A DNA stretch of 64,000 nt from Paracoccus aminophilus JCM 7686 (GTDB lineage Bacteria > Pseudomonadota > Alphaproteobacteria > Rhodobacterales > Rhodobacteraceae). Shown one piece after another: positions 14,389 through 37,790 of this stretch. Each line of letters begins with the position of its first letter. The first letter of the stretch is position 1. The position numbers and the translations under genes are program-made. The stretch lies in the NCBI RefSeq assembly GCF_000444995.1, contig NC_022049.1, positions 186,001 through 250,000 on the forward strand, given 5' to 3'. Under the pieces are notes generated by a model. The model was not told the origin of the DNA, did not search any database, and was given only the letters and a program-made list of their open reading frames with translations.

Positions 14389-14419
14389 CGCGGGGATACT
14401 CCAGAGTGACGCCCGGACA

Positions 14420-16035: not shown

Positions 16036-16049
16036 CGCATGCGTCCTTC

Positions 16050-19252: not shown

Positions 19253-19253
19253 G

Positions 19254-22337: not shown

Positions 22338-23275
22338 CGCCCGAGATGCGCCTCGACGCCGCCGAACACCTGCTCATCCACGGTCAGCCGCTTGACCAAA
22401 GGGGCGGTCGCGCTTTCCTCGGTCATGCCGATGCCGCCGTGAAGCTGAACCGCCTCGCGCGCGATCAGCCCGCCCGAAGTCACCGCCTGCACCCAAGCCG
22501 CATGAGCGAGCTGCGCCGCGCGCGGGTCTTGGGCATCGAGCGCGCGGGCGGCGGCACCGGATAGCGCGCGCGCCTCTTCCAGCGCGATCGAGAGATCCAC
22601 CATGCGGAACTGGATCGTCTGGAAGGACCCTAAAGCCTGCCCGAACTGCCGCCGCTCGCGCATATAGGCCAAAGTCATCTCGTAAAGCGCGCCCATCGCG
22701 CCGGTCGCATCGGCGGCGGCGGCGGAAAGCGCGCGGGCGAGCGCCAAGGGCAGGGCCTCGGCCCCGCCCGCGATCACCGTGCCCGCATCGACCGGCGGCA
22801 CGGTCCAGATGGCGCGGCCATCGATCATCTGGCGCGCCGGGCCGGGCAGGGGGGCGAGACGCAGCGCGCCCGAGCCGTCAAGCATCAGCACCTGAGTGGC
22901 GCCCTCGGGACCAAACGCGGTAAAGGGCAGGCCCGCGTGATCGGGGCGGGCATCGAGCAGATTGCCCGAAACCGCGACCCGCGCCGCGCCCGCACTCACC
23001 TGCGTGCCCAGATCGGTCCCGGCGAGCAGCAAGGGCACCAGAACGCACTCAAGCGCCGGGGTGGCTTGAAGCCCCGCGCGGCCAATCTCAGTCGCAATCG
23101 CGGCCTCGCCCTGCGCGCCAGCTTCCGCCCCTCCTTGGGCCTCAGAGAGCCCCGCGCCGATCAGCCCCAGTTCGGCGAGACCCGGCAGCGGATCGGTGCC
23201 CTTGGCCTCATCGGCAAAGCGCGCCACGGATCGGGCCAGCACCTCGAGATCGCTTTTTTCCATCATCGCGGCCAT
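22322..23275 (-). CDS. Acyl-CoA dehydrogenase, short subunit of a probable heteromeric pair
   Basis: 317 residues, shorter than the usual 380-400. The C-terminal half is recognisable (MTLAYMRERRQFGQALGSFQTIQFRMVD over two conserved stretches, REAVQLHGGIGMTEE). The N-terminal and middle domains are reduced and lack the usual flavin-binding middle-domain signature. It lies 2 bp after a full-length dehydrogenase. Paired genes of this kind encode alpha2-beta2 enzymes, as in steroid side-chain degradation, where each subunit supplies part of the FAD or substrate site. Two ATGs are possible; the first is given. Confidence 0.88.
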   Translation of the reverse strand: MAAMMEKSDLEVLARSVARFADEAKGTDPLPGLAELGLIGAGLSEAQGGAEAGAQGEAAIATEIGRAGLQATPALECVLVPLLLAGTDLGTQVSAGAARVAVSGNLLDARPDHAGLPFTAFGPEGATQVLMLDGSGALRLAPLPGPARQMIDGRAIWTVPPVDAGTVIAGGAEALPLALARALSAAAADATGAMGALYEMTLAYMRERRQFGQALGSFQTIQFRMVDLSIALEEARALSGAAARALDAQDPRAAQLAHAAWVQAVTSGGLIAREAVQLHGGIGMTEESATAPLVKRLTVDEQVFGGVEAHLGRYRAA

Positions 23276-23277: not shown

Positions 23278-24453
23278 CTATCTCAGCCCCAAAACCTGTT
23301 TCGACAAGATCATGCGCTGCACCTCATTCGAGCCGCCCCAGATCGTCACTTTGCGCAGATTGAGCCAAGCGGCCATTGCGCCCTGCGCTTGGGCGTCCTC
23401 ACCCGGAGCCTCGCCCTCAAGGAAAGCCTCGTCATGGACGAGCGCGCGCCGCCCGAAGAGATCGAGCCGCAGCCGCGACAGATCCTGCGCGATTTCGGTG
23501 CCCCGGATCTTGAGCCGCGAGGCTTCCGGCCCGGGTTTTCCGCCTGCTTCTGAGGCGGCAAGCAGCGCCAGTTCCATCTCCTCCAAAGCCAGCAGCGCGA
23601 TCTCGATCCGGGTCAGGCGGTTCAGGAAGGTGATGTCGTCAAGCCGCCCCATTGCCGCCGCATCCTCGCGGATCTCGCCCAAAATCCGGCGCGAGCGCGC
23701 TGCGCCCGACATCGAAAACCGCTCATATTCCAGCAGGAACTTGCCGTAGCCCCAGCCCGCGCCTTCGGTACCGACCAGATTTTCGACCGGCACGCGCACC
23801 TCGTCGAAAAAGACCTCGTTGAATTCGGCCTCGCCGTCCAAGGTCTTGATCGGGCGCACGGTGATGCCCGGCGTCTTCATGTCGATCAGAAGGAAACTGA
23901 TGCCCTCCTGCGGACGCGCGCCCTTGGCGGTGCGCACCAGCGCGAACATCCAATCGGCCCAATGCGCCCAGGTCGTCCAGATCTTCTGGCCGTTGACGAC
24001 GTAATGATCGCCCTCGCGCCGGGCCGAGGTGCTGAGGCTCGCCAGATCCGAGCCCGCGCCCGGCTCGGAATAGCCCTGACACCAGAAGGTCCGGTTCTCG
24101 CGGATATCGGGCAGGAAGCGCGCGCGTTGGGCGTCATTGCCGAAGGCATGAATGACCGGCCCCGCCATGCTGATCCCGAACTGACAGGGATGGGGGGCCG
24201 GGATCGCGCCATATTCGCGCTCGAAGAGATAGCGCTGCACCGGGGTCAGACCGGGGCCGCCCATCTCGCGGCTCCAGCCGATCGCGTAGAAATTGCGCGC
24301 GGCCAGCACCTCCTGCCAGCCGGTCAGATCGTCGCGGGTCAGGCGGATGTTTTGGCGCACTTTCTGGGCGAGATCCGCCGGCAGGCGCGCGCGCAGCCAC
24401 GCGCCCGCCTCTGCGGCAAAGGCGCGATCGGCCTCGGTGATGGTCAGGGTCAT
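23278..24453 (-). CDS. Acyl-CoA dehydrogenase, full-length subunit
   Basis: 391 residues. Family signatures: CQGYSEPGAGSDLASL (FAD/substrate loop), WTTWAHWADWMF, FNEVFFDEVRVPVENLVG, and C-terminal IWGGSNEVQRMILSKQVLGL. Predicted FAD-dependent alpha,beta-desaturation of an acyl-CoA, passing electrons to ETF. It lies 9 bp after the second CoA-transferase and 2 bp before the short subunit, so all three are one operon: activate, then desaturate. The MaoC and SDR proteins of the neighbouring operon could take the next two steps. Confidence 0.94.
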   Translation of the reverse strand: MTLTITEADRAFAAEAGAWLRARLPADLAQKVRQNIRLTRDDLTGWQEVLAARNFYAIGWSREMGGPGLTPVQRYLFEREYGAIPAPHPCQFGISMAGPVIHAFGNDAQRARFLPDIRENRTFWCQGYSEPGAGSDLASLSTSARREGDHYVVNGQKIWTTWAHWADWMFALVRTAKGARPQEGISFLLIDMKTPGITVRPIKTLDGEAEFNEVFFDEVRVPVENLVGTEGAGWGYGKFLLEYERFSMSGAARSRRILGEIREDAAAMGRLDDITFLNRLTRIEIALLALEEMELALLAASEAGGKPGPEASRLKIRGTEIAQDLSRLRLDLFGRRALVHDEAFLEGEAPGEDAQAQGAMAAWLNLRKVTIWGGSNEVQRMILSKQVLGLR

Positions 24454-24462: not shown

Positions 24463-25668
24463 TCAGATGATGTTTTGCGCGCGAAGGCGGGTGATGTCGG
24501 CGGCGGACAGGCCCAGAAGATCGGCCAGAACCGCAGGCCCATCCGCGCCGAGATCGGGCGCGGGCGCGGTCTCTCCCCGCGCGAGACCGGCGAAATGGGC
24601 GGGCTGTTCGGGGATGAGCAGGGGGCCGAGCCGGGGATGGTCGTGCCGGGTCAGAAGGCCGCGGTGCTGCGCCTGCGGGCTGAGGGCGGCCTCATCGACG
24701 CCAAGAATGCGCGCGGCGGGCACGCCTTTCGCGCTCAGATGGGCCACGACCTCGGCGGCGGGGCGGGCGCGGGTCCAGCCCTCGATCTCGAGGCGCAGCG
24801 CCTCGGCATGGTGGCGGCGCAGGGCATCCGAGGCAAAGCGCGGGTCGTCCAGCAGCGCGGGGCGCGCGATCGCATGGGCAAGGGTTTGAAAAAGCGCGCG
24901 ATTGGCGACCGCGATCATCACCTTTTCGTCGCGCGCCCGATAGGCGCCGAAAGGAGCCGAGAGCGGATGGGCATCGCCGCTTGGCTGCGGGCGCTGCCCG
25001 CTTTGCTGCCAGCCCGCAAGCGCGGTCGGCAACAGGCTGAAAAGCGCGTCAAACATCGCAATGTCGATCGCCGCCCCCGCGCCGGTGCGGGCGCGGCGCA
25101 AAAGCGCCGCCGTAATCGCCTGCGCCGCATAAAGCCCCGCAACGGTGTCGCCGATGGAATCGCCCACCAGCACCGGATCGCGGCCCGGCTCTCCGGTGAC
25201 GCTCATCAGCCCGGACATCGCCTGCGCGATCACATCATAAGAGGGCAGGGCCGAGAGCGGCCCGCTTTGGCCAAAGCCCGAGATCGCGCAATGGATCAGC
25301 CGGGGGTTCTCGGCGCAGAGCCGCGCGGCGTCGATGCCCAGACGCGCAGCGACGCCGGGGCGGAAATTCTCGATCACCACATCGGCGCGCCGCGCCAGCG
25401 CCTGCGCCAGATCGCGCCCTTCGGGCTGGCGCAGATCGAGCATCAGGCTTTCCTTGCCGCGGTTGAGCATGTGGAAATTCACGCTTTCGCCCGCCCGCGC
25501 CGCGCCCATCTGGCGCTGGTCATCGCCCTCGGGCGGCTCGATCTTGATGATGCGCGCGCCCTGATCGGCAAGCAGCGCGGTGCAAAACGGCCCCGCCACC
25601 ACCCGCGAGAAATCGAGGATGGTAATCCCGGCAAAGGGGCGCGGATCAGAGGCGGTCTCGCTGGTCAT
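24463..25668 (-). CDS. Family III CoA-transferase (CaiB/Frc type), copy 2
   Basis: 401 residues, close paralogue of the copy at 16050-17261. It shows ILDFSRVVAGPFCTALLADQGARI, FRPGVAARLG, GFGQSGPLSALPSYD and GDSIGD with the catalytic aspartate. Two such enzymes in one block suggest either two substrates, or one enzyme loading the substrate and the other recycling CoA from a product. It heads the reverse operon with both acyl-CoA dehydrogenase subunits and is divergent from the second dual-HTH LysR gene. Confidence 0.93.
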   Translation of the reverse strand: MTSETASDPRPFAGITILDFSRVVAGPFCTALLADQGARIIKIEPPEGDDQRQMGAARAGESVNFHMLNRGKESLMLDLRQPEGRDLAQALARRADVVIENFRPGVAARLGIDAARLCAENPRLIHCAISGFGQSGPLSALPSYDVIAQAMSGLMSVTGEPGRDPVLVGDSIGDTVAGLYAAQAITAALLRRARTGAGAAIDIAMFDALFSLLPTALAGWQQSGQRPQPSGDAHPLSAPFGAYRARDEKVMIAVANRALFQTLAHAIARPALLDDPRFASDALRRHHAEALRLEIEGWTRARPAAEVVAHLSAKGVPAARILGVDEAALSPQAQHRGLLTRHDHPRLGPLLIPEQPAHFAGLARGETAPAPDLGADGPAVLADLLGLSAADITRLRAQNII

Positions 25669-25809
25669 GGGCTAAGACTGTCCCAATTTCGCGCGCGCGT
25701 GAAATCGCGACTTCCGAATAAAGTGATAAATATTTCCGAACATCAGATGAGCTCTTGCGCCGCCCCTGTTCGGGCCATGATATATCCCGATCAACCATTG
25801 CGGCAGTTC
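25669..25809. promoter_or_regulatory. Divergent promoter/operator, CoA-transferase 2 / LysR
   Basis: AT-rich 141 bp. TTCCGAA occurs at 25712-25718 and again at 25734-25740, a direct repeat 22 bp (two helical turns) apart around ATAAATATT. TGATATATCC at 25778-25787 matches 17506-17515 upstream of the amino-acid importer. It covers an alternative ATG at 25777, which is one reason for choosing the later LysR start. Confidence 0.45.
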
Positions 25810-27015
25810 ATGGATATCCTGACCCTTACCCTCGTCGATGCGATCTTCCGCAACCGTGGCGTGCGCCAAGCCGCGCGGGCCGAGGGGCGTTCGCCTTCGA
25901 CCGTCAGCTCGGCGCTCTCGCGGCTCGAGGCGGCGATTGCCGTGCCGCTGATCCGCCGACAGGGCACGACCTTCATCCTGACGCTTGAGGCGGAACGCCG
26001 CGCGCCGATGCTGGCCCAGACCGTCGCGAGCATTCAGGCGCTGCTGGAAACCGCCGCGCCGGGTCGGGCCGAAGTGCCGCAGATCAGCATCGAGGCGCTG
26101 ACCCGCTTTTCGGTGACCGCGCATCGCGGCAGCATCCGGGGCGCGGCGCGCTCTTTGGGGATCGGCCAGCCACAGCTCACGCGGCAATTGGGCGATTTCG
26201 AGCGGCGGCTCGGGGCCGAGCTTTTGGCGCGCACGGCCTCTGGCGTCACCCTGACCGCGACGGGGCGCGCGCTTTTGCCCCATGCCGAGGCGGTGGTGAC
26301 GGGGTGGGAGACGATGGCGCGCGCCGCCTCGGACCGCTTCAAGCGCGACATCAGCACCTGGCGTCTGGGCACGGTGATGCCTTTGGGTCATGAAAGCTCG
26401 ATCGCGCGGATGCTGTCCAATCTCACCGCGCATTGGGCGCGCGAACAGGCGCGCCACCCGCTGCTGATCTCCAGCCATACCGCCGATGAGCTGATGCTGG
26501 GGCTGAAGACGCGGCGCTTTGATCTCGTCGTCATCGACCATGTGAAGATCCCGCGCGATTTCTTCTGGGCCGAGATTTCCAGCGCGCCTTTGGCCTTGGT
26601 CGGCGACGCCGGGGTGATGGCGTCCGAGCCCTCGATCCCAGAGCTCTTGCGGAAATATCCGCTGGCTCTGCCCAGCCTGCAAAGCGGCATCCGCCAAGAG
26701 GCGATGCGGTTTTTGGAAGCGACGCTTGGCCCCGAGGCCGCGAATATCCCGATCATCGAGGTCGATTCGATCCCCGTGATCATCAATCTCGTGGCCGATC
26801 ACCGTTATATCTCGATCCTGCCGCAGCCCTCGCTGGTGCGGCTGCCGTTTTCCTTCCGCCACATCAGCCTTGCGCCCGACCATCTCCAGCGGCTGGTGCT
26901 GGCCTGGCGGCGCAGCGGCCTGCCCGATGGGCTGATCGAGGCGGTGCGCCATTCGGTGCTGACCGATGAGGCGACGAGCAAGGCGACCGAGGCCGAGAAC
27001 CCGCCCGCGCGATAG
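25810..27015 (+). CDS. LysR-type regulator with two adjacent HTH domains
   Basis: 401 residues from MDILTLTLVDAIF. A first LysR HTH covers about residues 1-50 (RQAARAEGRSPSTVSSALSRLE). A 40-residue helical linker leads to a second HTH at about 92-150 (GSIRGAARSLGIGQPQLTRQLGDFERRLGAELLAR), then a single LysR effector-binding domain. The arrangement differs from the protein at 20637-22337, where each HTH has its own effector-like domain. No clear ribosome site is visible, so the start could be 33 bp upstream. It is divergent from the CoA-transferase operon and precedes the hydantoinase operon by 95 bp; either may be its target. Confidence 0.85.
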   Translation: MDILTLTLVDAIFRNRGVRQAARAEGRSPSTVSSALSRLEAAIAVPLIRRQGTTFILTLEAERRAPMLAQTVASIQALLETAAPGRAEVPQISIEALTRFSVTAHRGSIRGAARSLGIGQPQLTRQLGDFERRLGAELLARTASGVTLTATGRALLPHAEAVVTGWETMARAASDRFKRDISTWRLGTVMPLGHESSIARMLSNLTAHWAREQARHPLLISSHTADELMLGLKTRRFDLVVIDHVKIPRDFFWAEISSAPLALVGDAGVMASEPSIPELLRKYPLALPSLQSGIRQEAMRFLEATLGPEAANIPIIEVDSIPVIINLVADHRYISILPQPSLVRLPFSFRHISLAPDHLQRLVLAWRRSGLPDGLIEAVRHSVLTDEATSKATEAENPPAR

Positions 27016-27110: not shown

Positions 27111-28502
27111 ATGGATGCCATGTCAGATTTCGATCTCGTCCTTTCCGGAACTGTCGTGCTGCCCGAGCGGCAAATCGAAAACGGCCATGTCTGCGTGCGC
27201 GACGGCAAGGTCGCTTTGGTCGCGCAGGGCTCTGCCCCCGCCGCGCGCGAGCGCCATGACTTGGGCGAGGCGCTGATCCTGCCCGGCGCGATTGACGCGC
27301 AGGTCCATTCGCTGAGCCAGAAGGGCACCGAGGATTTCATCTGGTCGACCCGCGCCGCAGCCGCAGGCGGCGTCACCACCATCGTCGATATGCCCTATGA
27401 CGAGGGCAATCTGGTGTGCTCGGCCGAAGCCGTGCGCCGCAAGGCCGATCACGCCGGCGCGCAGGCCCGCGTCGATTTCGCGCTTTACGGCACGATCGAC
27501 CCCGAGGAAGGCCCGACCCGCATCGCCGAACAGGCGCAAGCCGGGGTCGCGGGCTTCAAATTCTCGACCTTCGGCACCGATCCCAAACGCTTCCCGCGCA
27601 TCCCCGCGCCGCTGATGGCCGCGTGCTTTGCCGAAGTCGCCAAGACCGGGCTGGCCGCTGGCGTGCATAATGAAAACGACGAATATGTGCGTTGGGCGAT
27701 GGATCAGGTGAAGGCCTCGGGCGTCACCGATTACCGCGCGCATGGCATGTCGCGCCCGCCGCTGACCGAGCTGCTCGCGATGGCCGAGATCTATGAGATC
27801 GGCGCCCATACCGGCTGCCCGGCCCATGTCGTTCACTGCTCGCTGCCACGCGGCTATGAGATCGCGGCGAGCTACCGCGCGCAGGGCTATCAGGCGACGG
27901 TCGAATGTCTGATCCATTATCTGATGCTCGACGAGGAGGTGGACGCCAAGCGCCTTGGCGGGCGCTCGAAATGCAACCCGCCCTTGCGCCCGCGCGCCGA
28001 GGTCGAGGGGCTCTGGCGTCAGATCACCGAGGGCAATGTCACGCTTCTCTCGACCGATCACGTCAGCTGGTCTCTGGACCGCAAGACCGATCCCGACATG
28101 CTGAAAAACGCCTCGGGCCTGCCGGGGCTGGAAACCATGATCCCGCTTTTCGTCAAAGGCGCGCTTGAACGCGGCGTGCCGCTGACCTGGGCCGCGCGTC
28201 TGATGGCTGCCAATCCCGCGCGCCATTTCCGCATTGACCACGTCAAGGGCGCGCTGACCGTCGGGCGCGACGCCGATATCGTCGTGCTGACGCCCGAGCC
28301 CTTCACCGTCGATACCGCCAAGACCGGCAACAGCGTCTCGGGCTGGTCGCCTTTCGACGGGATGGAGCTGCCCTGGCGCGTCGCCGCGACCTATTCGCGC
28401 GGCGATCTGGTCTTTGACGGCAGCCGCGTCGTCGCCGAGCCCGGTCGCGGCCAATGGATCCGCCCCGACCGCGCCATCCCCTTCGACGCAGGCCGCCCGT
28501 GA
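27111..28502 (+). CDS. Hydantoinase/dihydropyrimidinase-type cyclic amidohydrolase
   Basis: 463 residues, allantoinase-hydantoinase-dihydroorotase family. Metal-site elements: IDAQVHS (Gln64 where the first His of H-x-H is usual, His66 kept), carbamylatable Lys in GFKFSTFG, His in VHNEND, His in HVVHCS, Asp in LLSTDHVSW. Predicted ring opening of a cyclic ureide to an N-carbamoyl amino acid, which the next gene would hydrolyse. In the proposed ergothioneine route the substrate would be hydantoin-5-propionate. The start is set by GGAGG at 27095-27099. Stop overlaps the following GTG. Confidence 0.9.
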   Translation: MDAMSDFDLVLSGTVVLPERQIENGHVCVRDGKVALVAQGSAPAARERHDLGEALILPGAIDAQVHSLSQKGTEDFIWSTRAAAAGGVTTIVDMPYDEGNLVCSAEAVRRKADHAGAQARVDFALYGTIDPEEGPTRIAEQAQAGVAGFKFSTFGTDPKRFPRIPAPLMAACFAEVAKTGLAAGVHNENDEYVRWAMDQVKASGVTDYRAHGMSRPPLTELLAMAEIYEIGAHTGCPAHVVHCSLPRGYEIAASYRAQGYQATVECLIHYLMLDEEVDAKRLGGRSKCNPPLRPRAEVEGLWRQITEGNVTLLSTDHVSWSLDRKTDPDMLKNASGLPGLETMIPLFVKGALERGVPLTWAARLMAANPARHFRIDHVKGALTVGRDADIVVLTPEPFTVDTAKTGNSVSGWSPFDGMELPWRVAATYSRGDLVFDGSRVVAEPGRGQWIRPDRAIPFDAGRP

Positions 28503-29755
28503 GCGCGCCGGTGAGTGGCGCGGCGCTCAGCAATCTGCGCATCGACACCGCCCGCCTTGGCGCAGATCTCGCGGCTTTGGCCGAGATCACCGAGCCGGGC
28601 CGTCCGTGGACGCGCCGCGCCTTCACGCCGAAATTCCTCGAAGGCCGCGCTTGGCTTGAGGGCCGGATGCAGGCGGCGGGGTTGACCACGCGCATTGATG
28701 CGGCGGGCAATCTCATCGGGCGGCTGGCGGGCAAGACCTCGGGCGCGGGCGTCTTGATGGTCGGCTCGCATTCCGACACCGTGCCCGATGGCGGCCGCTT
28801 TGACGGGATCGCGGGGGTTCTCGCCGGTCTCGAGATCGCGCGTGCGGTGCAGGATCAGGGCATTACCTTCGCGCATGACCTTGAAATCGTGGATTTTCTG
28901 GCCGAAGAGGTCTCGATCTTCGGCGTGTCTTGCGTCGGCAGCCGCGGGCTCTCGGGGCAGCTTCCCGAGGATTGGCTGAGCCGTATCGCGGACGGTCGCG
29001 ATCTGAAAGCCGCGATTGCCGAGGCGGGCGGCGCGATTGAAGAGGCCACGCCCCGCGCCGATGTGAAGGGCTTTCTCGAGCTGCATATCGAGCAAGGTCC
29101 GGTCCTTGAGGCCGAGGGCCTGCCGATTGGCGTTGTCACCGCGATTGCCGGGATCACCCGCGTTCTGGTGACCGTCGCGGGCCGCCCCGATCATGCGGGC
29201 ACGACGCCGATGAACGCGCGCCAAGATGCGCTGATCCCCGCCGCCGAGCTGGTGCTGGCGATCCGCGCCAAGGCCGATGCCTTGGCCGCAGGTCCGGGCC
29301 ATTTCACCGCCACGGTGGGCGAGTTCCGCATGGAGCCCAATGCCGCCAATGTCGTCCCCGCGCGGGTCGAGATGCTGATTGACGCGCGGGCATCCGAGCG
29401 CGCCGATATGGAGGCGTTTCTGGACTGGCTCGGCACCGAGGGCGCGCGCCACGGCGCCGAGGTCAAGGTGCTTTCCGACAATCCCCCGAAACCCAGCCAT
29501 CCGGCGGTCTGCGATCTGCTGGAAGCGGCGGCGGAAAAGCTTGGGGCTGGACATCGCCGCATGGTATCCGGGGCAGGGCATGACGCCGCCTGGATGGGGC
29601 GGATCGCGCCGACCGCGATGGTCTTTGTGCCCTGCGCGGGCGGGCGCAGCCATTGCCCCGAGGAATGGGCCGAGACCGGGGATATCGCCCTTGGCGCGGC
29701 TGTGATGCTGGAAACGCTGATCGAAATGGACCGTCTGGTCCCGGTAATCGCTTAA
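28499..29755 (+). CDS. N-carbamoyl amino acid amidohydrolase (Zn-dependent M20/hydantoinase-carbamoylase family)
   Basis: 418 residues from a GTG that overlaps the previous stop (GTGA). Dinuclear metal ligands are visible: VGSHSDTVPDGGRFDG (His, Asp), FLAEEVSIFG (Glu pair), ELHIEQGPVLE (His) and SHCPEEW (C-terminal His). GAGHDAAWM is the usual substrate-side motif. Predicted to split N-carbamoyl amino acid into amino acid, CO2 and ammonia. Next to the hydantoinase it completes a hydantoin-to-amino-acid pair; N-carbamoyl-glutamate is the expected substrate if the ergothioneine model is right. Confidence 0.92.
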   Translation: MSAPVSGAALSNLRIDTARLGADLAALAEITEPGRPWTRRAFTPKFLEGRAWLEGRMQAAGLTTRIDAAGNLIGRLAGKTSGAGVLMVGSHSDTVPDGGRFDGIAGVLAGLEIARAVQDQGITFAHDLEIVDFLAEEVSIFGVSCVGSRGLSGQLPEDWLSRIADGRDLKAAIAEAGGAIEEATPRADVKGFLELHIEQGPVLEAEGLPIGVVTAIAGITRVLVTVAGRPDHAGTTPMNARQDALIPAAELVLAIRAKADALAAGPGHFTATVGEFRMEPNAANVVPARVEMLIDARASERADMEAFLDWLGTEGARHGAEVKVLSDNPPKPSHPAVCDLLEAAAEKLGAGHRRMVSGAGHDAAWMGRIAPTAMVFVPCAGGRSHCPEEWAETGDIALGAAVMLETLIEMDRLVPVIA

Positions 29756-29767
29756 AGGAGTTTGGCC

Positions 29768-30856
29768 ATGGGACGTATTCTGGTCGAAAAAGATGTCGAG
29801 GCTGCGGTCAAGGGCGGCTCGATCTATGCGGCGGGCGGCGGTGGCTGGTCGGATCATGGCCGGATGCTGGGCCTTGCGGCGGTGAATGCCGGTCAGCCCG
29901 AGCTGGTTTCCATCGACGAGCTGGACGAGCAGGACTGGGTCGCGACGGCGGCGGCGATTGGCGCGCCTGCCTCGACCACGCCTTGGGAGATGCGCGGCGT
30001 CGATTACATCAAGGCGGTGCAGATGCTGCAGGACGCTTTGGGCGAGCGCGTCGCGGGCCTGATCATCGGGCAGAACGGTAAAAGCTCGACCCTGAACGCC
30101 TGGCTGCCCTCGGCAATCCTTGGCACGAAAGTCGTCGATGCGGTCGGCGATATTCGCGCCCATCCGACCGGAGACATGGGCTCGATCGGGATGGCCGGTT
30201 CGCCCGAGCAGATGATCCAGACCGCCGTCGGCGGCAACCGCGCCGAGAACCGCTATATCGAGCTGGTGGTGCGCGGCGCGACCGCGAAGATCTCGCCGAT
30301 CCTGCGCACGGCCTCCGATATGTCGGGCGGCTTTATCGCCTCCTGCCGCAATCCGCTGCGCGCCTCTTATGTGCGCCAGAATGCGGCGCTTGGCGGGATT
30401 TCGATGGCGCTGGCTTTGGGCGAGGCGATCATTCAGGCCGAAAAATCCGGCGGTCACGCGGTCATTGACGCGATCTGCAAGACCACCGGCGGCCATATTC
30501 TGGCCGAGGGCGTCATCACCCGCAAAGCCGTCGTCTATACGCCCGAGGCGTTCGACGTGGGCACCGTCACCATCGGTTCGGGCGACAGCGCGAAAGTGCT
30601 GCATGTGATGAACGAATATATGGCCGTCGACAGCGCCGAGGGCACGCGCCTTGCGACCTTCCCCTCGGTGATCACCACGCTCTCGCCCGAGGGCGAGGCG
30701 CTGAGCGTCGGCCAGCTGCAAGAAGGCATGAAGATCTTCGTGCTGCATGTCCCGAAAGAGATCATCCCGCTCTCGGCCTCGGTGCGCGACGCCTCGGTCT
30801 ATCCGCCGGTCGAAAAGGCCATGGGGATCGAGATCGCCCGTTACGCGCTCGACTGA
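29768..30856 (+). CDS. DUF917 family protein
   Basis: 362 residues; AAGGAG six bases before the ATG sets the start. The length and the GGGGWSDHGR N-terminal region, AVGDIRAHPTGDMGSIG centre and PLSASVRDASVYPPVEKAMG C-terminal signature agree with DUF917, a family repeatedly found beside hydantoinases and related amidohydrolases but without a settled activity known to me. It lies between the carbamoylase and the urocanase homologue in one operon. In the proposed pathway the unassigned step is removal of sulfur from the thiohydantoin-propionate, so this protein is a candidate; that assignment is inference. Confidence 0.85.
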   Translation: MGRILVEKDVEAAVKGGSIYAAGGGGWSDHGRMLGLAAVNAGQPELVSIDELDEQDWVATAAAIGAPASTTPWEMRGVDYIKAVQMLQDALGERVAGLIIGQNGKSSTLNAWLPSAILGTKVVDAVGDIRAHPTGDMGSIGMAGSPEQMIQTAVGGNRAENRYIELVVRGATAKISPILRTASDMSGGFIASCRNPLRASYVRQNAALGGISMALALGEAIIQAEKSGGHAVIDAICKTTGGHILAEGVITRKAVVYTPEAFDVGTVTIGSGDSAKVLHVMNEYMAVDSAEGTRLATFPSVITTLSPEGEALSVGQLQEGMKIFVLHVPKEIIPLSASVRDASVYPPVEKAMGIEIARYALD

Positions 30857-30913
30857 GCCACCCTTCCGGGCGGTCGCATCAGGCCGCCCCCCGTTTTCGT
30901 GAAAGGAACCGCC

Positions 30914-32572
30914 ATGCCGCGTCCCAATCCGCGCCACCCGAATTTCCCGATCCCCTCGGGCCCCGAACTCCGCGCCAAAGGCTGGCGGCAAGAGGCGCTG
31001 CTGCGCCTCTTGGAAAACGTCCTCGCCGTGGGCGAAGACCCCGAAAATCTCGTGGTCTATGCCGCCCTTGGCCGCGCCGCCCGCAACTGGGAGGCCCATG
31101 CCGGGATCGTCAAGGCGCTAACCGAAATGGGCGAGGATCAGACGCTGCTTGTCCAGTCGGGCAAGCCGGTCGGTCTTTTGAAAACCCATGCCAAAGCGCC
31201 TTTGGTCATCATGGCCAATTGCAACTTGGTCGGCCAATGGGCCAAGGCCGAATATTTCTATGACCTGCAAAAGAAGGGCCTGATCTGCTGGGGCGGGCTG
31301 ACGGCGGGCTGCTGGCAATATATCGGCAGCCAAGGCGTCATTCAGGGCACCTATGAGATCTTCATGCGCATCGCCGAAAAGCGCTTCAATGGCTCGCTCG
31401 CCGGGCGCTTCATCCTGACCGCAGGCATGGGCGGCATGGGCGGCGCGCAGCCTTTGGCCGGGCGCATGGGCGGGGCGGCGACCTTGGTTGTCGATATCGA
31501 CCCCGAGCGCGCCAAGATGCGCAAGGAGATCGGCTATCTCGAGACCATCGCCAGCGATCTCGACGAGGCTTTGGCGCTGATCGCCAAGGCGGTCGAGGAA
31601 AAGCGCGCGACCTCGGTCGGGCTGGTTGCCAATGCGGCGGACGTTTACCCCGAGATCCTGCGTCGCGGCGTGATCCCCGATATCGTGACCGACCAGACCT
31701 CGGCCCATGATCTGGTTTACGGCTATGTCCCGCGCGGCCTTAGCCTCGAGGAAGTGCGCCGGATGCGCGAAGAGGATCCGACCGCGCTGATGGCGCTGTC
31801 GCGCGCCTCGATCGTGCCGCATGTCGAGGCGATGCTCGGCTTTCAGAAGGCCGGGGCAGAGGTCTTCGACAACGGCAACCTCATCCGTACGCAGGCCAAA
31901 GAGGGCGGCGTCACGAACGCCTTCGACATCCCGATCTTCACCGAGGCCTATCTGCGCCCGCTCTTCTGCCGTGCGATCGGCCCCTTCCGCTGGATGGCGC
32001 TGTCGGGCGAGGAAAGCGACATTGCCCGCATCGACGACCTGCTGCTCGAAATGTTCGCCGACAACAAGATCGTCACGAACTGGATCAGCCTTGCCCGCCA
32101 GAACGTGCCGTTTGAGGGCCTGCCCTCGCGCATTGCTTGGCTGGGTCATGGCGAGCGCACGCGGCTTGCGCTTCGCGTCAACGAGCTCGTGGCCAGCGGC
32201 GAGCTGAAAGGCCCGGTCGCCTTCTCGCGCGATCACCTCGACGCGGGCGGCATGGCGCATCCGAATATCATGACCGAGAATATGAAGGACGGCTCGGATG
32301 CGATTGCGGACTGGCCGCTTCTCGATGCGATGCTGATGTGCTCGTCGATGGCCGATCTCGTGACGATCCATTCGGGCGGCGGCGGCTATGCCGGCTATAT
32401 GACGAGCTGCGGCGTGACCATCGTCGCCGATGGCACCGAAGAGGCCGCGGCGCGCATTGACCACGCGATCACCAATGACACCTCGATCGGCGTGATCCGC
32501 TATGCCGATGCGGGCTATGAGGAGGCGCTGGACGAGGCAGAGAAGGCCAAGATCGGCCATATCAAGCTGTAA
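30914..32572 (+). CDS. Diverged urocanase-family hydratase; candidate thiourocanate hydratase
   Basis: 552 residues, full HutU length, with AAGGAA before the ATG. NAD-binding core is conserved: TAGCWQYIGSQG, GTYEIF, LTAGMGGMGGAQP, DQTSAHD. Tyr in VVYAALGRAARNWE and His in KTHAKAP match known urocanase active-site residues. However, the active-site cysteine of urocanases, in SRICW.GYGER, is Ala408 here (SRIAWLGHGER), and the HHGGGVG motif is HSGGGGY. WGG replaces the usual YGQ before LTAG. No hutH with MIO, hutI or hutG is nearby. These changes and the hydantoinase context suggest a modified urocanate such as thiourocanate as substrate. Confidence 0.85.
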   Translation: MPRPNPRHPNFPIPSGPELRAKGWRQEALLRLLENVLAVGEDPENLVVYAALGRAARNWEAHAGIVKALTEMGEDQTLLVQSGKPVGLLKTHAKAPLVIMANCNLVGQWAKAEYFYDLQKKGLICWGGLTAGCWQYIGSQGVIQGTYEIFMRIAEKRFNGSLAGRFILTAGMGGMGGAQPLAGRMGGAATLVVDIDPERAKMRKEIGYLETIASDLDEALALIAKAVEEKRATSVGLVANAADVYPEILRRGVIPDIVTDQTSAHDLVYGYVPRGLSLEEVRRMREEDPTALMALSRASIVPHVEAMLGFQKAGAEVFDNGNLIRTQAKEGGVTNAFDIPIFTEAYLRPLFCRAIGPFRWMALSGEESDIARIDDLLLEMFADNKIVTNWISLARQNVPFEGLPSRIAWLGHGERTRLALRVNELVASGELKGPVAFSRDHLDAGGMAHPNIMTENMKDGSDAIADWPLLDAMLMCSSMADLVTIHSGGGGYAGYMTSCGVTIVADGTEEAAARIDHAITNDTSIGVIRYADAGYEEALDEAEKAKIGHIKL

Positions 32573-32604: not shown

Positions 32605-32633
32605 AAAGACCGCGCCCTCAGGCGCGGTCTTTT
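32605..32633. terminator. Bidirectional terminator between urocanase and gntR genes
   Basis: Perfect 12-bp stem AAAGACCGCGCC/GGCGCGGTCTTT with loop CTCA, A-run on one side and TTTT on the other. It ends the hydantoinase-urocanase operon 33 bp after its stop. The convergent gntR stop codon lies within the loop and stem, so it also terminates that gene. Confidence 0.93.
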
Positions 32634-33283
32634 CCGGTGATGCGATGGGCATCGGGCACGGTATGGCGGCGCGCGATCTCATGGGCGCGCCCGGCATCGC
32701 CCGCGCAGATCGCGGCGAGCAAGGGCTCGTGCAGGTCGATGATTGCCTGCGGCTCGTCATAGAAATCATCGGCCATGCGCAGGAACAACAGCGCCGGACC
32801 CTCGAGCCTGCGATAAAGATCCTGCAAGCGCCGACTGCCCGACAAAGCAATGACCGTGCGGTGAAAAAGCAGGTCGAGCTCCAGAAGCTTGCGGCGCTGA
32901 CGCGCGGCTGCCGCCTGCCGCATCTGTTCCATCACCCCTGAAAGCCGCGCCTTGCCCGCCTCGTCAATGCGCTGCGCCGCAAGCTCTGCGCCAAGCGATT
33001 CCAGCGTGTCGCGCAGGATGGAAATATCGCTGATGTCTTCCTCGGTGACCGAGATCACGAAATTCCCGCGCCGGGGCCGGTGCTCGACCAGACCATCGGC
33101 CTGCAGATATTTCAGCGCGCCGCGGATCGTGCCCTGAGACACGCCAAAGCGCTCGGCCAGCTCCATTTCCACCAAACGCTCGCCCGGTTTGAACACCCCG
33201 GTCAGGATCGCATCCTGCAAGGTGGCGGCGGCCTCTGCTTCGAGGCTGGGGCGGGTGAGACTGAAGCCCTCATCTGACAGCAT
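32618..33283 (-). CDS. GntR-family (FCD) transcriptional regulator
   Basis: 221 residues from the second of two close ATGs, because AAGGA is then 6 bp upstream, whereas it abuts the first. N-terminal winged helix: GVFKPGERLVEMELAERFGVSQGTIRGALKYLQADGLVEHRPRRG in consecutive conserved stretches. C-terminal all-helical FCD domain with metal/ligand residues such as D...H in DLLFHRTVI and LHEPLLAAI. Likely a ligand-responsive repressor of either the hydantoinase operon or, more probably by its upstream position, the divergent aminotransferase-TRAP genes. Its 3' end lies inside a terminator. Confidence 0.92.
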   Translation of the reverse strand: MLSDEGFSLTRPSLEAEAAATLQDAILTGVFKPGERLVEMELAERFGVSQGTIRGALKYLQADGLVEHRPRRGNFVISVTEEDISDISILRDTLESLGAELAAQRIDEAGKARLSGVMEQMRQAAAARQRRKLLELDLLFHRTVIALSGSRRLQDLYRRLEGPALLFLRMADDFYDEPQAIIDLHEPLLAAICAGDAGRAHEIARRHTVPDAHRITGKDRA

Positions 33284-33294
33284 CGGCATTCCTT

Positions 33295-33354
33295 GTTCTA
33301 ATCTGGCCTTGTTCTGATCCGGCCGTGTTCTGATCCGGCCGTGTTCTGATCCGG
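33295..33354. repeat. 16-bp tandem repeat, four units, upstream of gntR
   Basis: Units GTTCTGATCCGGCCGT at 33311-33326 and 33327-33342 are identical; a partial unit follows (33343-33354) and a degenerate one precedes (33295-33310, with AAT and TGG changes). The array begins 12 bp upstream of the chosen gntR ATG, so it occupies the gntR leader or promoter. Confidence 0.9.
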
Positions 33355-33541
33355 GCTTCTGGTGGCCCAGCCTTCTTGTGGTCCGGCGCCTGATTAGAGC
33401 CAGCCGCCCGGGCTGTCACTTGGCACCGAGATGAATTTTCTTGCGAAGTCGGGGCTCCAAACGAACAGAAAGGACCCGTTGCATTTATTATTGATAATCA
33501 TTAATCGAGAAAAGAACAACTGACGACCCGAGGAGACGGAA
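33355..33541. promoter_or_regulatory. Control region of the aminotransferase-TRAP genes
   Basis: 187 bp. The most distinctive element is the AT-rich TTATTATTGATAATCATTAAT at 33485-33505, with the symmetrical core TGATAATCA. It resembles a GntR operator or a degenerate FNR-type box (TTGAT-N4-ATTAA, one mismatch). No gene is seen. GAGGAGACGGAA directly precedes the aminotransferase ATG. Confidence 0.45.
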
Positions 33542-34888
33542 ATGAGCGGTGTGTTTTCCAGAGATTTCGCGGCCGAGATGCCGCTGGTGGATCATGCCGA
33601 GGGCGTCTGGATCCAGACCGTGGACGGGCAGCGCTATCTCGACGGGATGGGCAGCGCCGGGGTGATCGGGATCGGTCATGGCCGCACCGAGATCTATGAG
33701 GCGCTGGCCGGGCAGGGCACCAAAGTATCCTATGTCTATACCGCCTCTTTCACCCATCCCTGGCAGGAAGAGCTGTCGAAATCCATGCTCTCGGTCGCGC
33801 CCGAGGGCATGTCGGCGGTCTATTTCGTCTCGGGCGGCTCTGAGGCCAATGAAACCGCGCTCAAGCTCGCCCGCCAGTATCACGTCGAGCGCGGCGAGCC
33901 GACGCGCCACAAGATGCTGGCGCGCTGGCAGAGCTATCATGGTGTGACGATTGCGACATTGTCGCTGTCGGGGCGGACCTCGTGGCGCGCGCCCTATGAC
34001 CCCTATATGCTGCCGGTGGTCCATGTCTCGCCGCCCTATAATTACCGCTGCACGATCTGCGGCGGCGAGGGCGATTGCACCGATCATTGCATCGAGGAAC
34101 TCGAGCGCACCATCCTGCTCGAAGGGCCGGAAACCATCTCGTGCTTCTTTGCCGAAACCATCATCGGCACCACCGCCTCGGGCGTGACGCCGGGGCCGGA
34201 CTATTACCGCCGCGTGCGCGAGCTTTGCGACCGCTACGGCATCCTCTTCATCTGCGACGAGGTGCTGATGGGCTATGGCCGGGTCGGGCGGCCCTTTGCC
34301 ATCGAGGATTGGGGCATCACCCCCGATATGATCACCTGCGGCAAGGCGATCGGCTCGGGCTATGCGCCTTTGGGCGCGGTCATCGTCTCGGAAAAGATCG
34401 CGGGCTTTTTCCGCGAGGGCCGGCGCCGCTTCGTCCATGGCTTCACCTATAGCGGCCATGCGATGTCGTGTTTCGTCGGCCAGAAGGTCTTTGAGATCAT
34501 GAAGCGCGAGGATCTCTTCCGCCGCCCCGGCCGCATCGGCGCCTATCTGCACGAGCGTCTGGGCGCGCTGCAACAGCGCCATGAGATGATCGGTGATCTG
34601 CGCGGGCGCGGCCTTTATGCGGGGCTCGAATTCGTCGCCGATCGCCAAAGCCGCGCGCCTTTCGCCCCCGAGCAACAGATCACCACGCGGCTCGTCTCTA
34701 TGATGCGCGAGCGGGGCGTGATCGTCGGTGGCGGCGTGCCGGGCGCCAATTACGGCAAGGGCGGCGATCACATCCAGATCAGCCCGCCCTTCATCATTAC
34801 CGAGGCCGAGATCGACACGCTGACCGGCGCTCTTGACGAGGTTCTGACTGTTCTTGGACAAGAGCCGCGGATGCTGGCCGCCGAATAA
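33542..34888 (+). CDS. Class III PLP-dependent aminotransferase
   Basis: 448 residues. Motifs: FVSGGSEANETALKLARQY (phosphate/aldimine region), ICDEVLMGYGRVG with the PLP-contacting Asp, and Lys268 in TCGKAIGSGYAPLG forming the Schiff base. A cysteine-rich stretch RCTICGGEGDCTDHC lies around residues 170-183; related omega-aminotransferases often carry a YRC-type cysteine segment at this place. Substrates of this class are omega-amino or beta-amino acids. A TRAP transporter follows after 98 bp, so it probably deaminates the compound imported by that system. The exact substrate is not readable. Confidence 0.92.
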   Translation: MSGVFSRDFAAEMPLVDHAEGVWIQTVDGQRYLDGMGSAGVIGIGHGRTEIYEALAGQGTKVSYVYTASFTHPWQEELSKSMLSVAPEGMSAVYFVSGGSEANETALKLARQYHVERGEPTRHKMLARWQSYHGVTIATLSLSGRTSWRAPYDPYMLPVVHVSPPYNYRCTICGGEGDCTDHCIEELERTILLEGPETISCFFAETIIGTTASGVTPGPDYYRRVRELCDRYGILFICDEVLMGYGRVGRPFAIEDWGITPDMITCGKAIGSGYAPLGAVIVSEKIAGFFREGRRRFVHGFTYSGHAMSCFVGQKVFEIMKREDLFRRPGRIGAYLHERLGALQQRHEMIGDLRGRGLYAGLEFVADRQSRAPFAPEQQITTRLVSMMRERGVIVGGGVPGANYGKGGDHIQISPPFIITEAEIDTLTGALDEVLTVLGQEPRMLAAE

Positions 34889-34986
34889 GCGGCCCGCACC
34901 CTGACGCTGACGAAAGACCCTAGAAAGACCCCGAGACCACTCTCGACAAACCACTTAAAAAACACTGACCAACAGGAGATGCAGCA

Positions 34987-35940
34987 ATGAAAAAAATACT
35001 CACCGCATCGCTTTTCGCTTTTCTCGCCGCCGGAGCGGCTCAGGCGGAGGTGACCATGCGCATTGGCGGCGCGGGCTCGGATGCGAGCCCCGACACCAAG
35101 GCGATGGAGGTCTTTGCCGATAAGCTGAAAGAGCGCGTGGGCGACAAGATCACGGTCGAGCTCTTCCCGAATTCGCATCTGGGCACCGTCGACGAGATGG
35201 TCGAGCAGGTGAAGGGCGGCGTGCTCGAATGCATGTATGAAAGCGTGGGCGTGCTCGGCTCGTTCCACCCGGCGGCGAATATCGAAGGCGTCGCCTATGT
35301 CTACCGCGACGAGGACCATTTCTTCCGCATCTGGCGCGGCCCGGTCGGCAAGGAGATCCTCGATTCCATCGCCAATGACGCCGGTTTCCGCGTGATCGGC
35401 CCGGCCTTCCACGGCTTCCGCGACATGCTGACGAATGCGCCGATCACCAAGGTCGAAGATCTCGAAGGGCTGAAAATCCGCGCGCCGGGCATTCCGGCCT
35501 ATATCGAATCGATCCGCGCGCTTGGCGCAAACCCGGCGACCGTGGCCTTTGAAGAGGTCTATGCCGCGCTGCAAAGCCATGTCGTTGACGGGGTCGAGCA
35601 GCCGCTGACCGCGATCAAGGACAAGCGTTTCTATGAGGTGGTGAAAAACCTCGCGCTGACCAATCACATGGCCGAAACCATGGGCTTCATGTGCAATGCC
35701 GATTGGTTCAACGGGCTGGACGAGGCCGACCGGGGCGCGATCGAGGCTGCCGCGACCGACAGCGCCGATTGGTATCGCGGCTATACCGCCGACAGCCAGT
35801 CGAAGCTTCTGGCCGAGTTCGAGGCCGAAGGCGTGACCGTCACCCGTCCCGATCTTGCGCCCTTCATCGCCAAGGCGGCGACGGCCTCTTATGATCCGGC
35901 GCTGCAGCCGATCATCGACAAGGTCCGTGCGGTCGAGTGA
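34987..35940 (+). CDS. dctP: TRAP transporter solute-binding protein (DctP)
   Basis: 317 residues with a Sec signal peptide (MKKILTASLFAFLAAGAAQA). DctP features: KLKERVGDKITVELFPNSHLG, GLKIRAPGIPAYIESIRALGANP, VYAALQSHVVDGVEQPL and the conserved Arg in KIRAP that usually salt-bridges a substrate carboxylate. Ribosome site CAGGAGA precedes the ATG. A hairpin just after its stop probably protects its mRNA, giving more binding protein than permease. The ligand is probably an amino or keto carboxylate used by the upstream aminotransferase. Confidence 0.94.
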   Translation: MKKILTASLFAFLAAGAAQAEVTMRIGGAGSDASPDTKAMEVFADKLKERVGDKITVELFPNSHLGTVDEMVEQVKGGVLECMYESVGVLGSFHPAANIEGVAYVYRDEDHFFRIWRGPVGKEILDSIANDAGFRVIGPAFHGFRDMLTNAPITKVEDLEGLKIRAPGIPAYIESIRALGANPATVAFEEVYAALQSHVVDGVEQPLTAIKDKRFYEVVKNLALTNHMAETMGFMCNADWFNGLDEADRGAIEAAATDSADWYRGYTADSQSKLLAEFEAEGVTVTRPDLAPFIAKAATASYDPALQPIIDKVRAVE

Positions 35941-35950
35941 ACCGCCTCGC

Positions 35951-35972
35951 GCGCCTCCGCCCCCGGAGGCGC
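35951..35972 (+). other. Intercistronic hairpin between dctP and dctQ
   Basis: 9-bp perfect stem GCGCCTCCG/CGGAGGCGC with a 4-base loop, 11 bp after the dctP stop, without a T-run. Position and form fit a transcript-stabilising or processing hairpin that raises binding-protein expression over the membrane subunits. Confidence 0.65.
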
Positions 35973-35996
35973 AACCCTTTCCGCCGGAGAACTCCC

Positions 35997-36506
35997 TTGT
36001 CCAAAGCCCTGACCCTTATCGGCAGCGCCTTGCGCGGACTTTTGGCCGCGATCGTCATCTGCGCATTGTTTTTCATCGTCGTGCTCGTCTTCTATCAGGT
36101 CGTCACCCGCTATGTGACCGGCACCGCGACGCCCGAGCTGGCCGAGATTGCCCGCTTCCTCTTCATCTGGCTGGTCTTTGCCGGATCGGCCTGGCTCATC
36201 AGCCGCGGCGATCTGATCGCCATCGACTTCTTTTCCGCGCAGGCGGGCAGGGGCGGCAAGCGCACCCTGCGCATCTTCGCCGATCTGTGCACCGCAGCCT
36301 TTCTGGTCGCGCTGATCAGCTATTCGGGAAAGCTGCTTGATGTGGTCGCGATCAAACACGCGCCCGCAACCGGCATTCCCTACCGCTGGGTCTATCTGGC
36401 GCTGCCGGTCTTTGCCGTCTCGGGCATCTTTTTCGTGATCGAGCGGCTGGTGACCACCGGCTTTTTCGCGCGTCCCAGCGCCATCTCAGACAAAGCCGGA
36501 GACTGA
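35997..36506 (+). CDS. dctQ: TRAP transporter small permease (DctQ)
   Basis: 169 residues with four predicted membrane helices (for example LLAAIVICALFFIVVLVFYQ and FLFIWLVFAGSAWLI). DctQ signature: FYQVVTRYV, then AEIARFLFIW, then RGDLIAIDFF. A TTG start at 35997 was chosen because CGGAGA lies 8 bp upstream and the longer GTG start would translate through the hairpin into an arginine-rich, non-membrane leader. It couples to DctM in a sodium-driven importer. Confidence 0.88.
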   Translation: MSKALTLIGSALRGLLAAIVICALFFIVVLVFYQVVTRYVTGTATPELAEIARFLFIWLVFAGSAWLISRGDLIAIDFFSAQAGRGGKRTLRIFADLCTAAFLVALISYSGKLLDVVAIKHAPATGIPYRWVYLALPVFAVSGIFFVIERLVTTGFFARPSAISDKAGD

Positions 36507-36509
36507 TCC

Positions 36510-37790
36510 ATGTTGATGCTTCTGACACTTGCGATCATTCTTTTTGCGCTGATGTTTCTGGCGGTGCCGATCGCCATCGCGCTTGGCATTGCCTCGGTCG
36601 CGATCATCCTGATCTGGGGCACGCCGGGCTTTGTGCTGGCCCAGAAGATGGTGAACGGGATCGATTCCTTCCCGCTTCTCGCGGTGCCTTTCTTCATCCT
36701 GGCCGCCGCGATCATGAATTCGGGCGGGATCACCACGCGGATCGTCGATCTCTTGGGCTCGCTCATGGGGCGGCTGCGCGGCAGCTCTGGCACCGTCAAC
36801 GTCGGCACGAATATCTTCCTCGCGGGGATTTCGGGCTCGTCGGTTGCCGATGCCTCGGCCACCGGCGCGCTGATGATCCCCGAGATGAAGAAAGAGGGCT
36901 ATAGCGGCGCTTTCGCCGCCGCTTTGACCGCGACCGCCGCGCTTTTGGGTCCGATCCTGCCGCCCTCGATCCCCTTGGTGATCTATGGCGTGATTGCCGA
37001 TGTCTCGATCATGAAGCTCTTCGTCGGCGGCTATCTGCCCGCGCTGATGGTGGCTTTCGCGCTGATCTTCTACGTCAATCTCTATGCCGCGAAAAAGGGT
37101 CTGCCGCGCCGTGGCCGTCAGGGCGGTGCCGAGATCTGGCGCAAGTTCAAAGGCGCGGTCTGGGCGATGTCGATGCCGATCCTGCTGCTGGTCGGCGCGC
37201 GCGGTGGCTTTTTCACCATCACCGAGATCGGCGCGGTTCTTGTCGTCTATGCGCTCTTCGTCGGCTGGGTGATCCACCGCGAGTTTCGCTGGAGCAAGCT
37301 GCCCGCGATCTTGCTCGATGCCGGAATGCAGACCGCCAATATCATGCTCGTGGTCGCGACCTCGTCTTTCGTGGCCTATCTCATGGTGGTCCATGGCGTG
37401 CCGAAGGATCTGTCGCGCTGGATCCAGGAGGCGCATCTCTCGCCGGTGGTCTTCCTGCTGCTGATCAACGTGATCCTGCTTCTGGCCGGCGCCTTCCTCG
37501 ACTCGACGCCCGCGACGATCATCATCGTCCCGATCGTGCTGCCCTCAGCCATGGCGCTTGGCATCGACCCAGTCCATTTCGGCCTGATCGTTGTCGTCAA
37601 CCTGATGATCGGCCTGATCCATCCGCCGATGGGGCTGAACCTCTTGATCACGCAGGCCATCGCCAAAGAGCCAATGGGCGCGATCCTGAAAGAGAGCATT
37701 CCTCTGCTCGGGATCATGCTGGCCATCCTGCTGCTGATCACCTTCGTCCCGGCAACCGTGCTCTGGCTGCCAAGCGTGATGGGGCTCTGA
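36510..37790 (+). CDS. dctM: TRAP transporter large permease (DctM)
   Basis: 426 residues, highly hydrophobic with about 12 helices. Family signatures: PIAIALGIASVAI, FPLLAVPFFILAAAIMNSGGIT over adjoining stretches, GTNIFLAGISGSSVADASATG, LPPSIPLVIYG and GLIHPPMGLNLLI. Third and last gene of the TRAP set, with GGAGA ahead of its ATG. Followed by a stem-loop terminator candidate. Confidence 0.95.
   Translation: MLMLLTLAIILFALMFLAVPIAIALGIASVAIILIWGTPGFVLAQKMVNGIDSFPLLAVPFFILAAAIMNSGGITTRIVDLLGSLMGRLRGSSGTVNVGTNIFLAGISGSSVADASATGALMIPEMKKEGYSGAFAAALTATAALLGPILPPSIPLVIYGVIADVSIMKLFVGGYLPALMVAFALIFYVNLYAAKKGLPRRGRQGGAEIWRKFKGAVWAMSMPILLLVGARGGFFTITEIGAVLVVYALFVGWVIHREFRWSKLPAILLDAGMQTANIMLVVATSSFVAYLMVVHGVPKDLSRWIQEAHLSPVVFLLLINVILLLAGAFLDSTPATIIIVPIVLPSAMALGIDPVHFGLIVVVNLMIGLIHPPMGLNLLITQAIAKEPMGAILKESIPLLGIMLAILLLITFVPATVLWLPSVMGL

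Follow-up and report, generated by a model that had tools for sequence, protein, structure and literature searches.

The 64,000-nucleotide stretch of Paracoccus aminophilus JCM 7686 analyzed here (NC_022049.1, positions 186,001 to 250,000; hereafter the window) carries an operon at 27111-32572 that, judged by its protein families, very probably codes for the four enzymes that act late in ergothioneine breakdown and lead from thiourocanate to L-glutamate. Thiourocanate is a breakdown product of ergothioneine, a dietary antioxidant. Upstream of this ert operon, and divergent from it, lie genes for a class III coenzyme A (CoA)-transferase (CaiB2) and two acyl-CoA dehydrogenases (ACAD2 and ACAD1). 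We tentatively propose, at slightly under even chances, that this set feeds the operon via a CoA-dependent dehydrogenation of 3-(2-thioimidazol-4-yl)propionate.

The operon is a single run of four genes on the + strand in the order ertD-ertE-THD-TUH, and all four products passed their NCBIfam equivalog cut-offs. The predicted hydantoin-5-propionate amidohydrolase ErtD (27111-28502, PF01979) scored 778 bits against a cut-off of 600 (NF058538); its frame is open from 27027 and the model match begins near 27129. ErtE (28454-29755), a putative N-carbamoyl-L-glutamate amidohydrolase of the M20 hydrolases, scored 583 against 520 (NF058540), and 630 on a model for Zn-dependent hydrolases with a cut-off of 486; its open frame overlaps ertD, and its true start is uncertain. 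The thiohydantoin desulfurase (THD, 29762-30856), which has the S-Me-THD fold formerly called DUF917, reached 597 against 440 (NF058529). The urocanase homologue, a predicted thiourocanate hydratase (TUH, 30899-32572), scored 1033 against 930 (NF058530). TUH passed the general hutU cut-off as well (703 vs 375), although the thiourocanate model scored far higher, and its best PDB chain was 7ned at 805 bits, which we take to be the solved thiourocanate hydratase; the next nine sequences, 8q9u included, reached 581-627. The original prediction had read a hydantoinase, a carbamoylase, a DUF917 protein and a urocanase homologue as an operon for these late steps, and both the gene arrangement and the assignment were borne out. 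It had also placed no hutI, hutG or MIO-type (4-methylidene-imidazol-5-one) hutH in the window, and none was seen among the Pfam-scanned window genes, which were not all of them. The neighbors of the window urocanase are the ert genes, and the canonical HutH, HutI and HutG set stands at C4 of the same genome and not beside this urocanase. Since all four enzymes belong to the published ergothioneine pathway, the late steps count as known, and the route from thiourocanate to glutamate is not new. Beliaeva, Leisinger and Seebeck (ACS Chem Biol 2021) are said to have reconstituted the five-step bacterial catabolism of ergothioneine in vitro. The window shares all four late enzymes with that pathway; it differs in having no ergothionase in or beside the operon, and divergent CoA genes instead.

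For comparison, 80 ert loci were used, the best 80 of 383 confirmed THD relatives from a scan of species genomes. They come mostly from Rhizobium and Ensifer, with close relatives over-represented, and mostly 10 kb was fetched on each side. A lyase was counted as present at a score of at least 80 bits in the fetched stretch, and a CaiB2- or ACAD2-like gene at a score of at least 200 bits. The Rhizobium and Ensifer operons have the same order of late genes, whose products are closely related to those of the window (THD 83-86%, TUH 80-82%, ErtD 69-77% and ErtE 57-64% identical). The hydratase was present in 80/80 loci. Moreover, a lyase stands just before ertD in 78 of the 80, and the contigs of the other two end there; we call this lyase of the rhizobial operons ErtA. 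There is no lyase before ertD in the window, where that place is taken by a LysR-type regulator gene (25747-27015, +) with two HTH_1 domains and a LysR_substrate domain. Relatives of this regulator at 44-55% identity were found in 9 of the 80 loci. Double helix-turn-helix (HTH) LysR-type regulators also occur elsewhere, at 20637-22337 (+) of the window and at 10832-12016 of locus L008, and the regulators that adjoin the ert operons of the family genome G114, Thalassospira and Neorhizobium likewise carry two HTH domains.

CaiB2 (24463-25668), ACAD2 (23278-24453) and ACAD1 (22322-23275), all on the - strand, run almost without gaps and diverge from the LysR gene across 78 bases. The gene content, families and neighborhoods of this module and of the operon were observed directly. 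CaiB2 matched PF02515 with 402 bits, and its best PDB match was 4hl6 (268 bits). ACAD2 is a full-length, large-subunit type acyl-CoA dehydrogenase whose best PDB matches were 4x28 (172 bits) and then 6wy8_B (132 bits), both presumably from two-subunit steroid side-chain dehydrogenases. ACAD1, of 317 aa, is of the small-subunit type and gave no middle-domain match. The tandem of large- and small-subunit genes resembles that of such two-subunit enzymes (PimC/PimD; 4x28, 6wy8), but the neighbors differ and the pair stayed below the PimC cut-off (ACAD2, 367 vs 624) and the PimD cut-off (ACAD1, 100 vs 653); the 61 bits of ACAD1 on IpdE2 were under the cut-off too. The carnitine pair CaiB/CaiA likewise joins a class III CoA-transferase to an acyl-CoA dehydrogenase, and the recycling of CoA between an acid and its enoic acid would be alike. 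The carnitine equivalogs were not reached, with CaiB2 at 121 against 413 on the CaiB model and ACAD2 at 56 against 540 on the crotonobetainyl-CoA dehydrogenase model.

A second locus of this kind was found within the family. Among 345 sampled family genomes, which served for the desulfurase and ACAD1 searches, THD passed its cut-off in only two, P. aminophilus JCM 7686 and G114. The G114 genes form one run on one strand, LysR-ertD-ertE-THD-TUH-DctP-DctQ-DctM-CaiB-ACAD-ACAD. CaiB2 shares 60% identity with the CoA-transferase of this run across 94% of the G114 protein, and ACAD2 shares 57.5% with its first dehydrogenase across 99%; the sole PF00221 (aromatic lyase) match of the G114 genome is a MIO-type HutH. 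Between the tripartite ATP-independent periplasmic (TRAP) transporter genes of this run and those that accompany the lyase-less ert operon of Thalassospira, identity is 36-53%. Fetched stretches of the 80 ert loci held no CaiB2- or ACAD2-like gene (0/80). When further loci were added, the CoA module was present in two of the six ert loci whose fetched stretch held no lyase (the window and G114), compared to 0 of 88 lyase-bearing loci. The 88 are the 78 above plus L155, L160, L165-L170, L173 and L174; the six are L156, L159, L171, L172, G768 and the window, whose own lyase is 12.7 kb off; and L013 and L069, cut before the place of the lyase, and L157, which has no hydratase, were excluded. These loci are related to one another, so that the count is not one of independent cases.

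In the mechanism that we propose, CaiB2 would pass CoA from thiourocanoyl-CoA to 3-(2-thioimidazolyl)propionate, forming its CoA ester, and the ACAD2/ACAD1 pair would oxidize this ester to thiourocanoyl-CoA. The thiourocanate freed by CoA transfer would enter the hydratase, followed by the desulfurase with release of sulfide, the hydantoin-propionate hydrolase and the N-carbamoylglutamate hydrolase, to give L-glutamate. CaiB, too, moves CoA from product to substrate. We inferred the substrate, the direction, the pairing of the two dehydrogenases and the co-regulation of the two modules, and assigned the reactions from the enzyme families. Anaerobic communities presumably form 3-(2-thioimidazolyl)propionate as a reduced end product of thiourocanate. 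The proposed CoA entry rests on two loci, the window and G114. If it is correct, bacteria without ergothionase could consume ergothioneine breakdown products, and surveys based on ergothionase alone would therefore miss them.

A parallel is offered by the hut operon that P. aminophilus JCM 7686 carries at C4 (L011 9640-17236), in which the tightly spaced genes read hutI-hutH-hutG-CoA-transferase-ACAD-hutU. Its genes are 76-94% identical to the counterparts of Paracoccus alcaliphilus, where, as in Thioclava, a CoA-transferase and a dehydrogenase likewise precede hutU. In a sample of 238 family genomes searched at 1e-100, the hut-type dehydrogenase was found in nine, P. aminophilus JCM 7686 included; a CoA-transferase adjoined it in all nine, and the pair lay directly before hutU in six. 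These two genes are candidates for imidazolepropionate oxidation, in which the CoA-transferase and the one dehydrogenase would convert imidazolepropionate to urocanate. Imidazolepropionate is produced by gut microbes and has been linked to cardiometabolic disease, and Pseudomonas testosteroni was reported in 1973 to degrade imidazolylpropionate. Searches of the open-access literature found no paper naming genes for the breakdown of imidazolepropionate. As in the window, the CoA-transferase and dehydrogenase genes of the three hut operons stand beside a urocanase gene, whereas the dehydrogenase is a single one of another subfamily and the HutH and HutI are canonical. It is conceivable, though we put it a shade below an even chance, that CoA-transferase-ACAD modules serve as a general way into urocanase pathways that has no name yet, with imidazolepropionate converted to urocanate in hut operons and 3-(2-thioimidazolyl)propionate to thiourocanate in lyase-less ert operons. 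A module just before hutU with a counterpart beside an ert operon gives a concrete and cheap prediction for imidazolepropionate and its thio analogue.

Several findings weigh against CoA-dependent entry. Four other lyase-less ert loci (Thalassospira, Neorhizobium, Rhizobium CC-CFT758 and G768) have no CoA genes of this kind. G768 belongs to the same genus, in which THD passed the cut-off in 2 of 61 genomes (P. aminophilus JCM 7686 and G768), and it has a bare ert operon with an ErtA-clade lyase on another contig; the lack of a lyase beside an operon therefore does not mean that the function is absent. The G114 assembly is split into some 320 contigs and has 3% contamination; a lyase gene may thus have escaped it, or the ert contig may stem from another organism. 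The second dehydrogenase of G114 was rejected as an ortholog of ACAD1, because the match of 54-55% identity spans only 30-40% of the protein, at the level of generic small subunits; with a match over about 30% of the length only, the orthology of the pair is not proven. ACAD1 was also rejected as a marker of ert clusters in the family, since matches at 1e-10 in 310 of 345 genomes gave the search no discriminating power. Proteins of the ACAD2 type are common (E<=1e-60 was reached by 7687 of 7997 scored candidates, and some members are up to 84% identical), and both plasmid contexts opened for this type were unrelated. Furthermore, the TRAP genes of the window are not orthologous to those of G114, with DctM at 26% identity. 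Seven close relatives of ACAD1 (45-50% identical, 324-337 aa) stand out among 7994 scored candidates; against plasmids, ACAD1 gave no match at 1e-30 and only partial ones at 1e-8. The plasmid relatives of CaiB2, by contrast, count in favor of the proposal; they numbered 39 records, with 25 listed and 10 contexts opened: two were hut operons, four were clusters of lyase, CoA-transferase, hydroxyacyl-CoA dehydrogenase and hydratase, and four were CoA-transferase-ACAD pairs outside hut. Plasmids of Sodalis, Agrobacterium, Neorhizobium and Rhizobium carry this version of a lyase-CoA module, with hydroxyacyl-CoA dehydrogenase and enoyl-CoA hydratase.

An unlikely alternative is that a lyase within the window is the ergothionase that completes the pathway with the operon, the CoA genes being unrelated neighbors. 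The only PF00221 gene of the window lies at 12892-14439 (-), 12.7 kb from ertD and so inside the same 64 kb, and the other three PF00221 matches of the genome are HutH in the C4 hut operon, C1:1852241-1853701 and C5:329382-330884. The window lyase scored 445 bits on PF00221, and its best PDB match was the ergothionase 6s7j (257 bits); its link to the ert operon is a candidate only. Where HutH reads GSVGASGDLAPL, it reads GSIGAADLAPL, and the Ala-Ser-Gly (MIO) triad is lost; the C1 and C5 lyases are also without this triad, and HutH is canonical. The C5 lyase has up to 640 aa, and its N terminus has a hydrophobic segment resembling a signal peptide. In an alignment, the window lyase, the C1 lyase and ErtA retained three positions of the solved ergothionase, Tyr, Lys and Glu, the latter two presumably catalytic; HutH, the C5 lyase and the ert-locus lyases of Deinococcus and G101 lacked the Lys. 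With these positions retained, the window lyase could well act by removing trimethylamine from a betaine, possibly ergothioneine.

The phylogeny gave a mixed picture. In a tree of 37 sequences, some with long branches flagged by the tree tool, the window lyase grouped with four Rhizobium plasmid lyases and G128 (100/100), and then with the C1 lyase (97/93), in a clade that leaves out the Treponema denticola ergothionase and rhizobial ErtA. The T. denticola ergothionase fell with the ert-locus lyases of Burkholderia and Paracoccus denitrificans (97/94), as did, on a long branch, the C5 lyase of P. aminophilus JCM 7686. A third clade (100/100) united rhizobial ErtA with G359, G383, G603 and the distant G768 lyase. 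None of the three MIO-less lyases of the genome fell in the ErtA clade, and the window lyase did not group with the solved ergothionase. The ert-linked lyases are not one group, as those of Deinococcus and G101 stood outside all three clades; given this scatter, a different clade alone is weak evidence against the window lyase, and with the kept Tyr, Lys and Glu positions it leaves a role as ergothionase some probability. ErtA shares only 25-30% identity with the window lyase or with its paralog, compared to 57-86% for the late genes; the window lyase is thus not orthologous to the lyases of the rhizobial operons.

The neighborhood of the window lyase points elsewhere. The gene shares a same-strand set (12892-17438) with tandem genes for a MaoC dehydratase, a short-chain dehydrogenase/reductase (SDR) and a second class III CoA-transferase, CaiB1 (14420-17438, -). 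Searched against plasmids, the lyase had 783 records at 1e-40, with 57-63% identity among the 40 matches listed, and five loci of its type were opened (L151-L154 and G128). In three Rhizobium plasmid loci the SDR, MaoC and lyase are 70-72, 46-52 and 58-63% identical, respectively, to those of the window. The row in L151, L152 and L154 reads SDR, MaoC, lyase, betaine-type ATP-binding cassette (ABC) binding protein, ornithine cyclodeaminase (OCD) and PhnD-like protein, so that in three of the five relatives SDR and MaoC precede the lyase and a betaine-type binding protein follows it. L153 and G128, the other two of the five, have the lyase, cyclodeaminase and PhnD-like genes but, next to the lyase, no SDR or MaoC like those of the window, which favors the ergothionase reading. 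A CoA-transferase was confirmed in L151 only; no gene is annotated there in L152, and L153 and L154 are unannotated. Homology between CaiB1 and the L151 CoA-transferase was rejected, and because the former is PF02515 and the latter PF01144, only the logic of the two clusters is alike. In addition, Rhizobium leguminosarum Norway holds both a lyase-bearing ert operon on the chromosome (L089) and a window-type lyase on plasmid pRLN1. Perhaps, then, the window lyase cluster is a separate betaine route of lyase reaction, CoA transfer, hydration and oxidation. The original prediction had made this lyase, about 13 kb away, the first step of a complete ergothioneine island; its position and its lack of the MIO triad were confirmed, and the Tyr, Lys and Glu positions speak for the proposed role, whereas the different clade, the low identity to the operon lyases and the shared operon with MaoC, SDR and CoA-transferase genes speak against it. 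The spread of ert-locus lyases over the tree and the two of five relatives without SDR and MaoC led us to lower our estimate for CoA-dependent entry and to raise that for the window lyase.

It is also rather improbable that an ergothionase elsewhere in the genome, most likely the one at C1:1852241-1853701, feeds the window operon. This lyase, MIO-less and with Lys and Glu kept, lies next to a double-HTH LysR gene, whose product is 33-38% identical to the ert LysRs, and to ABC transporter genes of the glycine-betaine type; G768 gives a precedent for a lyase distant from its ert operon. The ABC genes behind it include a binding protein nearest OsmF (167 bits, under the cut-off of 400), and related binding proteins occur in three lyase-bearing ert loci (L166, L167 and L169). 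However, at 80 bits such a protein was found in 0/80 of the Rhizobium/Ensifer-type ert loci within the fetched stretch, and the C1 lyase falls in the clade of the window lyase and not with ErtA. The C1 locus carries the transport half of the L151-type set, and the genes downstream of its lyase match the Rhizobium loci of the window-lyase type, with OCD 87-90% identical.

We consider it improbable that the operon takes up thiourocanate released by other microbes and needs neither lyase nor CoA genes. Cross-feeding on thiourocanate has been described (PMC13405746), which counts for this reading, and ert operons without an adjoining lyase exist beside TRAP genes in Thalassospira and beside amino-acid type ABC genes in Neorhizobium and Rhizobium CC-CFT758. 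However, the search for further lyases in those strains covered their plasmids only, and it found one PF00221 gene, far from the operon, on each of the Thalassospira and Neorhizobium plasmids; uptake would also not account for the CoA genes that the window and G114 have. There is next to no chance that the operon degrades S-methyl thiourocanate instead, as, although S-methyl sister families exist for both enzymes and Pfam names the desulfurase fold S-Me-THD, TUH (757 vs 880) and THD (271 vs 450) were below the cut-offs of the S-methyl models and above those of the unmethylated ones.

The window holds two transporter sets near the operon. A polar amino-acid type (SBP3) ABC transporter is encoded at 17505-20632 (+; PF00497, PF00005, PF00528), and related ABC genes adjoin the lyase-less loci L157, L171 and L172. 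Behind the operon, 32618-37790 carries genes for a GntR/FCD regulator, a class III aminotransferase and a TRAP transporter. The TRAP genes (34987-37790) were rejected as the proven importer of the operon, as they lie behind the regulator and aminotransferase genes and their DctM is far from that of G114. Both sets are no more than candidates for the transporters that the original prediction assigned to the island.

Two other ert loci showed unusual gene content. L157, on a Microvirga ossetica plasmid (7843-15834), carries THD, ertD, ertE and an amino-acid ABC transporter, with no hydratase or lyase in the fetched stretch, and is perhaps a thiohydantoin-only variant. In L156, on a Thalassospira marina plasmid, a UbiD-type decarboxylase gene (14806-16224) lies directly behind the lyase-less ert operon and before the TRAP transporter.

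Elsewhere in the window, six consecutive luciferase-like monooxygenase (LLM) genes occupy 3095-10115 (-), and an SBP_bac_5 binding-protein gene (10816-12432) adjoins them. At 45877-54976 (-) there is a soluble di-iron monooxygenase cluster with two PF02332 subunits and a ferredoxin reductase, together with genes for an amidohydrolase, an Fe-S assembly protein and chaperonins; a DDE transposase gene (51054-51983) lies inside this cluster.

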